Positions 48,828 to 58,726 of a stretch of 64,000 bases of DNA are shown one piece after another. The DNA is taken from NCBI RefSeq assembly GCF_900156655.1, contig NZ_FTOG01000001.1, forward strand, positions 620,001-684,000. The letters are read 5' to 3'. Position 1 is the stretch's first letter. Each line of letters starts with the position of its first letter. The DNA comes from Rhodobacter aestuarii. Its GTDB lineage: Bacteria > Pseudomonadota > Alphaproteobacteria > Rhodobacterales > Rhodobacteraceae. The translations under genes were made by a program, and so were the position numbers. The notes below the pieces were generated by a model. The model worked only from the letters and a program-made list of their open reading frames with translations. It ran no database searches and was not told the DNA's origin.

Positions 48828-49136
48828 ATGTCCGAACTTTTAGAGCAGATGGCGCGGTTGCGCCGCCCCAAGCTTTTGATCCGTGCGGCGCGGTTTGGCC
48901 AAAGCGATTACAACCGCCGACGGGATCTGAAACGGCTTTTGGCGCAGTCAGAGCTGCCACCGCCCGCATCTGCCCTGCGCACCCTTTTGGAGATCGAAGC
49001 GGCACTGGAAGAGGCGCGCCTGAACGGAACCGCCGCCTATAGCTTCTTGCGCCATATCGAAGTGCTGATTGCGGTGATGGCGGAGGCGCGGTTGCTCGCG
49101 CCCTGCCCCAATCCGCCCGCCGCTAACGCGACTTGA
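48828..49136 (+). CDS. DUF6477 family protein
   Basis: The small (102-residue) basic then acidic helical protein reads ELLEQMARLRRPKLLIRAARFGQSDYNRRRDLKRLL, then a second helical part LRTLLEIEAALEEARLNGTAAYSFLRHIEVLIAVMAEAR. This matches the DUF6477 family found in Rhodobacterales; no role is known. ATG 48828 has GGGAGGGTCCC upstream. Its 3' end overlaps that of the HerA-like gene on the other strand by 14 bases. Confidence 0.8.
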   Translation: MSELLEQMARLRRPKLLIRAARFGQSDYNRRRDLKRLLAQSELPPPASALRTLLEIEAALEEARLNGTAAYSFLRHIEVLIAVMAEARLLAPCPNPPAANAT

Positions 49137-50700
49137 AAAGCGAACCAAGCACCCCGCGCACCAGTTCCTTGCCCGCTTTGGAGCCCAATTGCCGGGCGAG
49201 CGATTTGCCAAAGACCTCGGCAATGCTGTCAGAGCGGAAACTGCGCCGTGTGCTGGTAGATCGAGGGGCTTTTTCCACCTTCGCGCTCTTGATCGGCGTG
49301 AAGCGCCGCGCGCGGTTGAACTCCAGCTTCGCGGAAGCGGGTTCCGCAGTGTCTTCGGGCTCCGCCGCCTCCGCTTCTGCCGCCGCTTTTTGCGCGCGGG
49401 CCGCCAGAATTTCCGCGGCAGAATGCCGGTCGATCATCTGGTCGTATTTCAACCCATAGGGCGACGCCTTCACAATGATCTGCCTTTCCTCGGGCGTGAT
49501 CGGCCCAAGCCGCGACTGCGGCGGACGCACCAACGTGCGCTCAACAACGCCCGGTACGCCTTTGTTTTGCAAGAAAGAAGTCACCGCCTCGCCAGTGCCC
49601 ACTTCTTTGATGGCGGTTTCGGTTTCAAACCTTGGGTTCGGGCGATAGTTTTCCGCCGCGCGGCGCAGGTCTTTTTGGTCTTTGGCGGTAAAGGCGCGCA
49701 AGGCATGTTGCACCCGGTTGCCCAATTGGCCCAAAATATCCTCGGGTACATCGGCGGGGTTTTGCGTGATGAAATAGATGCCGACCCCTTTCGAGCGAAT
49801 GAGCCGCGCGACCTGTTCGACCTTATCGACCAGCGCTTTGGGCGCATCGTCAAACAGCAAATGCGCTTCATCGAAAAAGAAGACAAACTTGGGTTTGTCG
49901 GGGTCGCCCACCTCGGGCAGTTCTTCGAAAAGCTCAGACAGCAGCCACAAAAGGAAGGTCGCGTAAAGCCGCGGCGAGGACATAAGTTTATCCGCCGCCA
50001 AAATGTTGATCTGGCCGCGCCCATCCGGCGCAAGGCGCATCATATCGGCCAGATCAAGCGCGGGTTCGCCAAAGAACTGCGCCGCGCCTTGGTTTTCCAG
50101 CACCAGCAAGCGACGCTGGATTGCGCCCACCGATTGCACCGCCACATTGCCATAGCGCAGCGAAAGCTCATCGGCCTTTTCGCCAACGTAAACCAGCATT
50201 GCCCGCAGATCATCCAGATCCAGCAGCGCCATCCCCTCGCTATCGGCCAGATGGAAGGCGATATTGAGGACACCCTCTTGTGCCTCGCTCAGATCCAAAA
50301 GCCGGGCCAGCAACAACGGCCCCATTTCGGAAATCGTCGTGCGCACAGGATGCCCCTGTTCGCCAAACATATCCCAAAAGGTCACCGGATAGTCACGGTA
50401 GGTGAGATCGAAGCCGATGGTTTGTGCCCGCGCCATGAACGGTTCGTGCAGTTTGCCATTGGCCGAACCAGGGAGCGCGATGCCCCCCAAATCGCCCTTC
50501 ACATCGGCCATAAAAACCGGCACGCCCGCCGCCGAGAACCCCTCGGCCAAAATTTGCAAGGTGACGGTTTTGCCGGTGCCGGTGGCCCCCGCCACAAGCC
50601 CATGCCGGTTGCCGTATTTGAGAAGCAATTCCTGCGGCAGCCCATAGCCCTCGCCACCACCGCCCACGAAAATACCAGTCTCGGTCAAAACCCCGGTCAT
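49123..50700 (-). CDS. HerA-like helicase/ATPase (DUF853)
   Basis: The 525-residue P-loop ATPase has Walker A GATGTGKT near residue 38 and Walker B with FFFDEAHLLF near 258, followed by LIRSKGVGIYFITQNPADVPEDILGQLGNRVQHALRAFT, the HerA/FtsK-like C-terminal signature. It belongs to the stand-alone DUF853 group, not the NurA-linked archaeal HerA. The C-terminal 90 residues are Ala/Glu-rich and basic. ATG 50700 has AGGGAGGGG in front. The role, perhaps DNA translocation, is inferred. Confidence 0.88.
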   Translation of the reverse strand: MTGVLTETGIFVGGGGEGYGLPQELLLKYGNRHGLVAGATGTGKTVTLQILAEGFSAAGVPVFMADVKGDLGGIALPGSANGKLHEPFMARAQTIGFDLTYRDYPVTFWDMFGEQGHPVRTTISEMGPLLLARLLDLSEAQEGVLNIAFHLADSEGMALLDLDDLRAMLVYVGEKADELSLRYGNVAVQSVGAIQRRLLVLENQGAAQFFGEPALDLADMMRLAPDGRGQINILAADKLMSSPRLYATFLLWLLSELFEELPEVGDPDKPKFVFFFDEAHLLFDDAPKALVDKVEQVARLIRSKGVGIYFITQNPADVPEDILGQLGNRVQHALRAFTAKDQKDLRRAAENYRPNPRFETETAIKEVGTGEAVTSFLQNKGVPGVVERTLVRPPQSRLGPITPEERQIIVKASPYGLKYDQMIDRHSAAEILAARAQKAAAEAEAAEPEDTAEPASAKLEFNRARRFTPIKSAKVEKAPRSTSTRRSFRSDSIAEVFGKSLARQLGSKAGKELVRGVLGSLFKSR

Positions 50701-50714
50701 GCTGCCCCTCCCTT

Positions 50715-50742
50715 GGTTAAGGGCCACAATACTTCCTTAACC
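50715..50742. promoter_or_regulatory. Inverted repeat between HerA-like gene and candidate sRNA
   Basis: GGTTAAG (50715-50721) and CTTAACC (50736-50742) form a 7-bp inverted repeat with a 14-base spacer. It lies just before the HerA-like start on one side and about 20 bases before the candidate sRNA on the other, and may be a shared operator. Spacing does not match a CtrA site. Confidence 0.4.
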
Positions 50743-50763
50743 CTTTTGCGCCATAGTGGAATT

Positions 50764-50836
50764 GTCCCGCCTGTGCCTTTGGCCGTGGGACACTTCCTCC
50801 CTGTCGACTGGCCGCGCCCTTGGGCGCGGCTTTTTT
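50764..50836 (+). ncRNA. Candidate small RNA with anti-Shine-Dalgarno linker
   Basis: A 7-bp hairpin (GTCCCGC with GTGGGAC, inner GCC/GGC, 50764-50791) is followed by a single-stranded linker containing CTTCCTCCC (50793-50801). A perfect 9-bp terminator stem (GCCGCGCCC/GGGCGCGGC) with six T ends it at 50836. No coding gene on this strand would use this terminator. The two-hairpin layout with an exposed CCTCC recalls the CcsR/'cuckoo' RNAs of Rhodobacteraceae, stress-induced Hfq-binding sRNAs. The promoter is not clear; a weak RpoH-like CCATAG lies just upstream. Confidence 0.5.
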
Positions 50837-50893: not shown

Positions 50894-50922
50894 TTGACCT
50901 GAGCCCTTATCCACTCTAGCGT
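50894..50922 (+). promoter_or_regulatory. Sigma-70 promoter before the second RNA candidate
   Basis: TTGACC (50894-50899) and TAGCGT (50917-50922) are spaced by exactly 17 bases. Transcription would start near 50929. Confidence 0.6.
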
Positions 50923-50928
50923 TCATCT

Positions 50929-51026
50929 CAATGACATAGTCGGCTGGTCCGACAGGGGGAAGGAAGGGCTTCGGAAACGGGGCCCTTCACCCATTTCTGG
51001 ACCCCGCGTTCCGGGCGTGGTTTTTC
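50929..51026 (+). ncRNA. Second candidate small RNA or structured leader
   Basis: Downstream of a good promoter there are three hairpins in series: GTCGG/CCGAC (50939-50953), GAAGGGC/GCCCTTC (50963-50988), and an imperfect ACCCCGC/GCGTGGT stem (51001-51021) followed by a T-run. GGGGGAAGGAAGG lies between hairpins. No protein frame is supported. It could be a free ~97-base RNA, or a leader of ialB, which starts 111 bases further on, if the last stem does not terminate fully. Confidence 0.4.
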
Positions 51027-51136: not shown

Positions 51137-51733
51137 ATGATGAAAAAAAACAAATCCCTTGCTCTTCTGATTGCCATGGGTCTCGCTGCGCCGATGGCGT
51201 GGGCGCAAGACACCGCCGCGCCCGAAGCCCCCGCTGCCGCGACCGAGGCGACCCCGCCCGCCGCCGCCGTGGAAGGCCCCGGCTCGACCTATGTGAAAGA
51301 GACTTTTGACGACTGGCAGGTGCAATGCCTGCGCACCGAAACCGGCAATGATCCGTGCGAGATGTTCCAACTTCTCAAAGACGGTGATGGCAACGGCACG
51401 GCGGCGATCTCGATCATGGCGCTGCCGGAAGGCGAAGAGGCCGTTGCCGGCGCGACGATCACCACCCCGCTTGAGACCCTGCTCACCCAAGGCGTGAAGC
51501 TGAAGATCGATGCGCAAAACCCGATCCAGCTGCCGTTCAATGTGTGCTCGCAAGGCGGCTGCTTCTCGAACGTGTTCTTGAAAGCGCAAGACATTGATCT
51601 GTTCAAGAAGGGCAACAAGATCGCGATGACGATCATCCCTGCCGCCGCGCCCGATAAGCCGGTGGAACTGACGATCTCGCTCAAAGGCTTCACCGCTGCC
51701 TTTGACGGGCTGCCGAAACCGGCCAAGCCGTAA
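51137..51733 (+). CDS. Invasion-associated locus B (IalB) family protein
   Basis: The 198-residue periplasmic protein has a signal peptide (MMKKNKSLALLIAMGLAAPMAWA), then an Ala/Pro/Glu-rich linker to about residue 55. The IalB domain follows (FDDWQVQCLRTETGNDPCEMFQLLKD, PIQLPFNVCSQGGCFSNVFL). Four cysteines in that domain could form two disulphides. The family is widespread in alphaproteobacteria; outside Bartonella its role is unclear. The ATG follows GGAGGAAACCGG. Confidence 0.9.
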   Translation: MMKKNKSLALLIAMGLAAPMAWAQDTAAPEAPAAATEATPPAAAVEGPGSTYVKETFDDWQVQCLRTETGNDPCEMFQLLKDGDGNGTAAISIMALPEGEEAVAGATITTPLETLLTQGVKLKIDAQNPIQLPFNVCSQGGCFSNVFLKAQDIDLFKKGNKIAMTIIPAAAPDKPVELTISLKGFTAAFDGLPKPAKP

Positions 51734-57906: not shown

Positions 57907-58010
57907 AGGAATATCCTTCCGCGAAAATGTTTCTTTTGGGATGATGGCGCACAGAATGGCCTACGGTCAACAACCGAGATCAAAACCGGCTCCTTGCATC
58001 CTACCCAAAC

Positions 58011-58037
58011 AAAAAAGCCCCCGTCACCGGGGGCTTT
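58011..58037 (-). terminator. Intrinsic terminator of the cytochrome operon
   Basis: On the minus strand AAAGCCCCC pairs with GGGGGCTTT around a GGTGAC loop and runs on into TTT. It lies 20 bases after the cytochrome b stop codon. It may also act on the plus strand. Confidence 0.9.
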
Positions 58038-58057
58038 CTCATCTCTCTCATCCCGCC

Positions 58058-58726
58058 TCAGTCTTTGTAAAGCGGGGTTGCGCGGACGAGGCCTTTTTGT
58101 TCGAGATAGGCCTCTTCCTCGGCATTCAGATCAATGCGGTCATAGCCGGTGATCATCGGTTGCACGTGGCGTTTGAACCCATGCCCGATGGTCAGCAAAT
58201 ATAGATGCGCGACCACGAACGAGCCAATCGCAAAGGCAGCGAGCACATGCAGGTTGGCGATGATCGTGAGCCAGAACCCCTGCCCGTCTGCGCTGTCCCA
58301 AAAGCCATAAGATAGATAGGCGAGCCCCGTCACCCAGATCGCCGGGAAGAGCGCCATTTTCAGCGCGAAATAGGCCCCGGCTTGCAGCGGGTTGTGGCGG
58401 CGTTCCAAGGTTTTGGAATAGGGATGCTCCTCGCCCTTAAACACGCCATAGGCATAGAACCGCGCCACCTGCAAAAAGCCCGTCAGCCGCGGAATGAACT
58501 GCTTCCAGCCATGCGTGGTGAACAGCCAAAAGGTGGCGAAAACCCACAGCACCAACAGCGCAATCGCCACCAGCGAATGCACGGTTACCGCCAAGCCAAA
58601 GGGCATCACCTCATGCAGTCCCATGATCCGCGCGCCGGTGAAGAACAACAGCATGATCGAACCCGCTTGGGACCAGTGCCAAAGCCGATTGAACCGGCTG
58701 TAAACTTTTACGCAGCGCTCAACCAT
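58058..58726 (-). CDS. Cytochrome b561-type membrane protein
   Basis: The 222-residue protein has about four transmembrane helices with heme-ligand histidines (RFNRLWHWSQAGSIMLLFFTGARI, TVHSLVAIALLVLWVF, NLHVLAAFAIGSFVVAHLYLL). It is a Ni/Fe-hydrogenase or formate-dehydrogenase gamma-like b-type cytochrome that can pass electrons between quinone and a periplasmic partner. It overlaps the octaheme cytochrome gene by eight bases. ATG 58726 follows GAGG. Confidence 0.9.
   Translation of the reverse strand: MVERCVKVYSRFNRLWHWSQAGSIMLLFFTGARIMGLHEVMPFGLAVTVHSLVAIALLVLWVFATFWLFTTHGWKQFIPRLTGFLQVARFYAYGVFKGEEHPYSKTLERRHNPLQAGAYFALKMALFPAIWVTGLAYLSYGFWDSADGQGFWLTIIANLHVLAAFAIGSFVVAHLYLLTIGHGFKRHVQPMITGYDRIDLNAEEEAYLEQKGLVRATPLYKD

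Follow-up and report, generated by a model that had tools for sequence, protein, structure and literature searches.

A tandem pair of small RNA genes upstream of ialB in Rhodobacter aestuarii: an anti-Shine-Dalgarno RNA and its putative sponge

Introduction

The window analysed here is a stretch of 64,000 nucleotides from Rhodobacter aestuarii (contig NZ_FTOG01000001.1, positions 620,001 to 684,000 of the forward strand), and positions are counted along it unless a genome or contig is named. Between a divergently oriented gene for a HerA-like helicase and ialB, it carries a conserved RNA gene with an anti-Shine-Dalgarno motif, called sRNA1 here (sRNA, small RNA), and about 95 nt downstream a second RNA gene, sRNA2, which was absent from the sequence-only reading of this DNA and is complementary to the linker of the first. 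SorX and SorY, which regulate the singlet-oxygen stress response in R. sphaeroides and were published in 2015 and 2016, respectively or together as cited in PMC7074977, have a linker of the same type. Our analyses suggest, with a probability of about 0.58, that sRNA2 is a sponge for SorX, SorY and sRNA1, as CrfA is for SisA-D, and that it is encoded beside one of its clients.

A conserved RNA gene with an anti-Shine-Dalgarno linker

The features of sRNA1 are the following.

50764-50791, plus strand: hairpin 1 (fold; prediction in relatives)
50793-50805, plus strand: anti-Shine-Dalgarno core CUUCCUCCCUGUC (alignment of 42 sequences, unpaired probability)
50796-50813, plus strand: stretch complementary to sRNA2, CCUCCCUGUCGACUGGCC (duplex with the own sRNA2; 40 genomes)
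50810-50836, plus strand: intrinsic terminator with six T (fold, terminator scan, pair changes)

The sequence-only reading had proposed a candidate sRNA at 50764-50836, in which two hairpins, the second an intrinsic terminator with six T, flank a linker with an anti-Shine-Dalgarno motif. Sequence and fold agree with this layout: CTTCCTCCC is found at 50793-50801 in the linker, the terminator stem spans 50810-50831, and the six T occupy 50831-50836. The predicted fold has a minimum free energy (MFE) of -33.9 kcal/mol (z = -3.09), and equal stability was reached by 1 of 200 shuffles. As had also been stated, the left neighbour (49123-50727) lies on the minus strand and no protein gene on the same strand explains the terminator. 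With its DNA single-copy within the genome and conserved in relatives, the proposed small RNA is supported as a stand-alone gene.

Conservation of the hairpins and the linker, which the earlier reading had made a test of its proposal, was found in relatives. When 61 genomes were searched with the sRNA1 DNA, 29 gave a match, with the linker core in 25 of the 29 and the terminator only in the other four. The terminator-only loci were set aside; they are L029, L030, L033, L034, and L035, the last being an additional site in one of the genomes. The HerA-like protein is encoded at 24 of the 25 core-bearing loci (not at L016) and the IalB protein likewise at 24 (not at L026), and sRNA1 is thus a conserved RNA gene between the divergent HerA-like gene and ialB. 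Across 42 aligned sRNA1 sequences, which were chosen by that same core with at most one mismatch allowed, the nine bases CCUCCCUGU are invariant. In the terminator stem, six of nine pairs are changed on both sides, compared with 1.4 in shuffles, while the count of additional pair types lies within the range of shuffles (61 of 500 reach it). Hairpin 1 varies in sequence, yet it is predicted in 41 of the 42 relatives; among ten near relatives it is paired in 100% of cells, and because just one pair is changed on both sides there, this hairpin rests mainly on prediction. The motif had been described as exposed, and the core is indeed predicted to be largely accessible, with a mean unpaired probability of 0.74 and a value above 0.8 in 20 of the 42 sequences. 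As side observations, 11 of the 42 sequences have TCCTC on the 5' side of the core, and a second C/U motif, CATGTCCTCTCC, is present in the hairpin-1 region or loops of some relatives (e.g., L017, L080, L081, and L086).

Relationship of sRNA1 to cuckoo, MmgR and SorX/SorY RNAs

The sequence-only reading had further suggested that sRNA1 may be an orphan member of the cuckoo/CcsR RNAs, while correctly remarking that no DUF1127 gene is present at the locus. CcsR RNAs are co-transcribed with a DUF1127 gene, an association described as frequent in alphaproteobacteria (PMC10253847). A further trait of the class is that its RNAs are cut by RNase E out of a shared precursor. DUF1127 has five matches in the genome, none of them beside sRNA1, and the nearest on the same contig is about 195 kb away. 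Directly behind a DUF1127 gene outside the window (locus L003, from G000:C19:475143 onward) lies an array of cuckoo-type repeats: a stretch of about 320 bases contains eight CCTCCTCCC motifs, seven of which are CTCCTCCTCCCTG, as would be expected from sequence for cuckoo/CcsR RNAs. sRNA1 departs from this array in its neighbouring genes, in copy number, and in both the motif and the place where it sits: its motif occurs once, as CUUCCUCCC in the linker, and not in several hairpins with CCUCCUCCC, a description that we borrowed for the cuckoo type from the wording used for alpha-r14 (PMC10746234). Although sRNA1 shares the octamer CCUCCCUG and the two-hairpin layout with the cuckoo RNAs, its nearest Rfam families are MmgR and SorX; an orphan cuckoo/CcsR identity is contradicted by these features, and the neighbouring genes, the motif and the Rfam score led us to reject it as extremely improbable.

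The Rfam scores also argue against an MmgR or SorX ortholog in the window. The sRNA1 sequence scores 30.8 bits (E = 1.8e-4) with MmgR/suhB (RF00519; cut-off 41), 29.3 bits (E = 4.4e-5) with SorX (RF02784; cut-off 46.6), the full model being aligned, and 18.9 bits with SorY (RF02651; cut-off 111). The alpha-r8 RNAs are described as having a single-stranded UUUCCUCCCU after a hairpin, followed by a terminator, with an N-formylglutamate amidohydrolase gene as neighbour in most species (PMC12559287). sRNA1 carries CUUCCUCCCU, which matches 9 of 10 positions of UUUCCUCCCU, and the full UUUCCUCCCU occurs in relatives such as L024, L031, and L082; its flanking genes are those for the HerA-like and IalB proteins and not the amidohydrolase gene. 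In G018 and G021, two genomes of the bacterial family, the MmgR-type matches above cut-off sit elsewhere; the sRNA1 copy of G018 scores 26.2 bits with RF00519, and that of G021 is absent from the matches listed. One suhB match, at C19:614398, was rejected as a candidate, being without CCUCCC. Similarly, SorX is matched above cut-off in 94 of 120 genomes of the bacterial family, and in each of the best 15 of these 94 its place differs from that of sRNA1. On scores and separate loci, we therefore rejected the reading of the window's sRNA1 as an MmgR or SorX ortholog.

The extended motif of sRNA1, UGUC(n)GACUGG, is much like that of SorX and SorY. In R. sphaeroides (genome G091, taken as strain 2.4.1 because its SorX lies at the coordinate published in PMC6238624), SorX, SorY and sRNA1 occupy three separate loci and score 37.2, 36.8 and 38.0 bits, respectively, with the sRNA1 model. 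On the strength of G091, the bacterial family whose genomes were searched is taken to be that of Rhodobacter. A SorY-like RNA is also found in the genome of the window (L208; G000:C11:239239-239318, plus strand), where it scores 51.7 bits with the SorY model, below cut-off. Two genomes, G023 and G159, have an sRNA1 locus that scores above the SorX cut-off (48.6 and 49.0 bits), and sRNA1 and SorX are therefore close relatives with a blurred border. Since model R2 also matches SorX and SorY, the 377 R2-positive genomes among 394 are not to be taken as having sRNA1 orthologs. On these sequence comparisons, the best description of sRNA1 is that of a third sibling in a SorX/SorY-like group.

A second RNA gene downstream of sRNA1

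The features of sRNA2 are the following.

50894-50922, plus strand: promoter TTGACC-N17-TAGCGT (conserved in 44 of 46 loci)
50930-51025, plus strand: sRNA2, putative sponge RNA (both ends predicted; 3' end near 50990 or near 51025)
50942-50959, plus strand: element GGCUGGUCCGACAGGGGG, complementary to the sRNA1 linker and to that of the SorY-like RNA (duplex tests)
50963-50988, plus strand: 3' hairpin GAAGGGC...GCCCUUC, without a U-run here (sequence, alignment, covariation)
51004-51025, plus strand: second terminator-like hairpin with TTTTT, possible end of sRNA2 in this species (terminator scan)

Relatives keep GTTGAC-N17-TAGCGT, followed by a stretch like AATGACAAAGTCGGCCAGTCCGACAGGGAG and a terminator-like hairpin. 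A promoter of the form TTGACN-N17-TAnnnT was found in 44 of 46 loci, with exact TAGCGT in 32, and its spacer is always 17 although 16-18 were permitted; L026 and L032, in which sRNA2 is degenerate, were excluded from this count. The 5' part of sRNA2, with the consensus GGCCAGUCCGACAGGGAG, matches the sRNA1 linker in reverse complement. Twelve of the 15 pairs of sRNA2 are changed on both sides, and the covariation score was reached by none of 500 shuffles; 11 of the 12 pairs belong to the 3' hairpin, and the 5' hairpin hardly varies. The conserved promoter and the covarying terminator-like hairpin would fit an independent transcript. No Rfam family matched sRNA2 at the loci scanned.

Model R1 of sRNA2 scores 64.5 bits at 50927-51003 of the window, which is one of its training sequences. 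It reaches at least 38 bits in 102 of the 120 genomes of the bacterial family, and 112 of 120 have a match at E up to 1e-3; these counts are partly circular, as some of the searched genomes gave training sequences. R. sphaeroides, which is outside the training set, has an sRNA2 of 69.5 bits. In at least 89 of the 102 genomes with sRNA2 (a lower bound from 88 listed genomes plus R. sphaeroides), the sRNA1 core lies directly upstream on the same strand, and the gap between the two genes ranges from 40 to 428, with a median of 75 (91 listed pairs, two of them with a weaker sRNA2). A class-wide sample of 142 genomes gave eight R1 matches at E up to 1e-6, and both strong ones are within the bacterial family; of the weak matches outside it, the two that were read are terminator-like. 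Four weak R1 matches read in genomes of the family are gene-end terminators. The candidates for a second sRNA2 copy, a window match at 57998-58104 (minus strand) and one at C5:126787 in the genome, were rejected because both resemble terminators at gene ends; the same holds for three weak matches in other genomes.

Loci were also collected through the HerA-like protein, of which 35 of 80 were scanned in addition to L245 of R. sphaeroides. The first 25 contain sRNA2 in 23 cases (22 of them training sequences) and sRNA1 in 17, and the next ten contain neither. At L245, the tandem of sRNA1 and sRNA2 precedes the IalB gene, and no HerA-like gene was found in the 5 kb read; the sRNA1 linker there is the variant CCUUCCUCCCUGAACUGGACUGGCC. 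On chromosome 1 of R. sphaeroides, sRNA1 spans about 1,426,671-1,426,729 and sRNA2 about 1,426,519-1,426,606, both on the minus strand. Separately, L088 seems to retain a decayed copy of sRNA1.

Complementarity of sRNA2 to sRNA1, SorX and SorY

In the window, the duplex of sRNA1 with its own sRNA2 has an energy of -38.5 kcal/mol, and 1 of 500 shuffles was as good. As the energies of whole-RNA duplexes discriminated poorly, they were replaced by element-only duplexes. Across 40 genomes (L026 and L032 excluded), the cognate linker-by-element duplexes have a mean of -37.0 kcal/mol, compared with -17.7 kcal/mol for mononucleotide-shuffled linkers, and the cognate energy was equalled by 2 of 8000 shuffled linkers; the mean duplex length is 17.6 base pairs. 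Summed over all pairs, own partners did better than permuted ones (p = 0.005 by energy, 0.004 by pairing score), and p = 0.003 by pairing score was obtained after the set was thinned by hand to 30 through the removal of ten near relatives. Matched changes in both RNAs were observed in L084 (GACTTGGCC / GGCCAAGTC) and L020 (GACTTGCC / GGCAAGTC), and in L014 and L015 a C to T change in sRNA2 stands opposite the A of sRNA1.

The complementarity extends to the unlinked siblings. SorX linkers were analysed in 14 of the best 15 SorX loci, G159 being left out because its locus is near a contig end, and in every one of the 14 the complementarity to the own sRNA2 exceeds that of any shuffle (0 of 300 in 13 genomes, 0 of 500 in G091). 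The SorY-like RNA of the window's genome pairs with sRNA2 at -38.9 kcal/mol (0 of 500 shuffles), and SorY of R. sphaeroides, at -36.0 kcal/mol, behaves in the same way. For the eight cuckoo loops, the energies lie between -20.4 and -34.9 kcal/mol and are equalled by 5 to 199 of 500 shuffles, and these loops are as a set less specific partners. Complementarity to sRNA seeds above chance, by which a sponge is recognized, was thus found for sRNA2. In a search for mRNA targets with extended pairing, the only exact occurrence of the 13-nt complement GACAGGGAGGAAG was at sRNA1 itself; three sites were found with one mismatch, equal to the three in a backwards control, and by eye no start codon lies at a suitable distance from any of them.

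Flanking genes and a putative divergent promoter

The genes on either side of the RNA pair and the promoter region next to sRNA1 are the following.

49123-50727, minus strand: HerA-like helicase, left neighbour (PF05872, 737 bits)
50726-50754, minus strand: putative promoter of the divergent HerA-like gene (-10 TATTGT; -35 ATGGCG; N17; conserved block)
51137-51733, plus strand: IalB-domain protein, right neighbour (PF06776, 118 bits)

The block A.aAtAC....TTAACC......tGCCA at 50726-50754 is present at 42 loci with 0 to 4 changes, and it fits a promoter for the divergent HerA-like gene better than one for sRNA1. It overlaps the place where an sRNA1 promoter must lie. Its -35 element is ATGGCG here and mostly cTGGCA among relatives, and its spacer contains TTAACC, which may resemble a CtrA half-site.

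Evidence against a sponge, and alternative explanations

Several observations weigh against the sponge reading, and some of them bear on other explanations of the same locus. Regarding the pairing, the duplexes are uninterrupted in 4 of 40 genomes, with one interruption in 24 and two in 12. Cognate specificity is weak: own pairs average -37.0 and swapped pairs -36.4 kcal/mol, just 23 of 40 genomes have an own sRNA2 that pairs better than the average foreign one, and the permutation tests ignore phylogeny. Changes may also be one-sided, as in L016, where the L084-type insertion is present in sRNA2 alone, and in L086, where the L020-type change is present in sRNA1 alone; moreover, the commonest sRNA1 sequence retains an A opposite C. 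Three of the eight cuckoo loops are beaten by just 5 to 10 of 500 shuffles, and the specificity of sRNA2 for the Sor group is therefore relative. In the predicted fold of sRNA2 itself, the AGGGA part is often paired (mean unpaired probability 0.43), and the MFE fold of the window's sRNA2 is without the 5' hairpin.

The near-equal pairing of swapped partners and the conserved mismatch would fit a complementarity that stems from shared origin through inverted duplication, or from a common terminator or linker bias, without functional pairing, as would the overlap of the 3' end of the linker with the common terminator stem GGCCGCGCC. We consider this improbable, because the complementarity is maintained throughout the bacterial family and is common to unlinked siblings too, because L020 and L084 have two-sided changes, and because the permutation tests favour own partners (p = 0.003 to 0.005). 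The probability of the sponge reading is nevertheless held at the level given above because the small margin of own over swapped pairs and the interrupted duplexes weigh.

The first 3' hairpin of sRNA2 in the window has no U-run, unlike that of many relatives, and sRNA2 may therefore end at the TTTTT hairpin at 51004-51025 or read through into ialB. This raises the possibility that sRNA2 is a 5' leader of ialB with an attenuator, with which sRNA1, as well as SorX and SorY, would pair to control ialB; the presence of IalB at 24 of the 25 sRNA1 loci examined is in line with it, and ialB would then become a common target of SorX and SorY, which is possible. However, many relatives have a terminator-like U-run after the 3' hairpin, and in relatives ialB has its own promoter-like CTGACA...TAA region downstream of the sRNA2 hairpin, as judged by eye from the alignment. 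A leader function is thus unlikely, though worth keeping in view.

Finally, the two genes do not always occur together: of the 23 loci with sRNA2 collected through the HerA-like protein, six (L073, L075, L079, L087, L088, and L089) gave no sRNA1 match in sense orientation, and the sponge may serve SorX and SorY only there. A sigma-70 scan found no promoter for sRNA1. Genomes with sRNA2 alone, and the better recognised promoter of sRNA2, could also mean that the roles are reversed, with sRNA2 as the mRNA regulator and sRNA1 as its antidote. We think that this has little chance of being correct, since the anti-Shine-Dalgarno seed is on sRNA1, SorX and SorY and the Shine-Dalgarno-like side on sRNA2, and since regulation of mRNAs is the role described for SorX and SorY (PMC6238624; PMC7074977).

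A model for sRNA2 as a sponge of sibling sRNAs

The most economical reading of sRNA2 is that of a sponge. In this model, sRNA1 would be a trans-acting anti-Shine-Dalgarno sRNA of the alphaproteobacterial kind, whose linker CUUCCUCCCUGUC, judging from its anatomy, would pair with ribosome-binding sites and block translation. sRNA2 would be transcribed from its own promoter about 95 nt downstream of sRNA1, and its 5' part, in the consensus the hairpin GUCGG-CCAGU-CCGAC followed by AGGGAG, is antisense to the linkers of sRNA1, SorX and SorY. It would offer a Shine-Dalgarno-like bait with extra bases that appear to fit this group best. Binding of the decoy to the siblings in the cell, presumably with the help of a chaperone, would mask their seed and probably lead to joint decay, so that sRNA2 would set the level above which they can act. 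By analogy with SorX/SorY and CrfA, its physiological role may lie in stress and nutrient regulation. The wider proposal, a sponge throughout the bacterial family that jointly titrates SorX, SorY and sRNA1 and lies beside its own client as a hard-wired unit of regulator and antagonist, parallel to CrfA and possibly of independent origin, is one for which we see the arguments as evenly balanced.

Comparison with known systems

sRNA1 resembles several described RNAs. It shares with SorX and SorY the CCUCCCUGU-nGGAC-type linker and the two-hairpin layout, although SorX derives from a 3' UTR (PMC6238624), unlike sRNA1. With MmgR/alpha-r8 (suhB, RF00519) it has in common a UUCCUCCCU core 3' of a hairpin, followed by a terminator, and with the cuckoo/CcsR RNAs (CIN1 locus) and NfeR1 of alpha-r14 an anti-Shine-Dalgarno motif in unpaired RNA. 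The texts on Paracoccus denitrificans (PMC5107571) and Ruegeria pomeroyi (PMC4809877), in their available parts and without supplements, contained nothing that could be matched to sRNA1 or sRNA2. Similarly, a literature search limited to texts other than the primary SorX/SorY papers found no published sponge for SorX or SorY, which is weak evidence of absence. What appears to be new is the family, its encoding in tandem with a client, and the extended complementarity near the 5' end.

Control of small RNAs by small RNAs has been described for StsR-UpsM in R. sphaeroides (PMC8307010) and for QrrX-Qrr in Vibrio, where qrrX lies between vca0830 and vca0832 (PMC9732341); these pairs are likened to sRNA2 by function only. 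The direct precedent, which supports the sponge reading, is CrfA of Caulobacter crescentus, a sponge that binds a core of the same type in SisA-D, which are alpha-r8 RNAs, and so sequesters them (PMC12559287). In both systems the sponge is complementary to the anti-Shine-Dalgarno core of several siblings built of a hairpin, a single-stranded core and a terminator. Unlike CrfA, with which the comparison was made by description, sRNA2 has a complementarity of about 18 nt near its 5' end and is encoded in tandem with a client, and R1 has no strong match outside the bacterial family in the class-wide sample. If the sponge reading is correct, the effective activity of SorX and SorY would depend on an RNA that is present in most of the family, and the sponging of anti-Shine-Dalgarno sRNAs, recently described in Caulobacter, would be a wider rule in Alphaproteobacteria.
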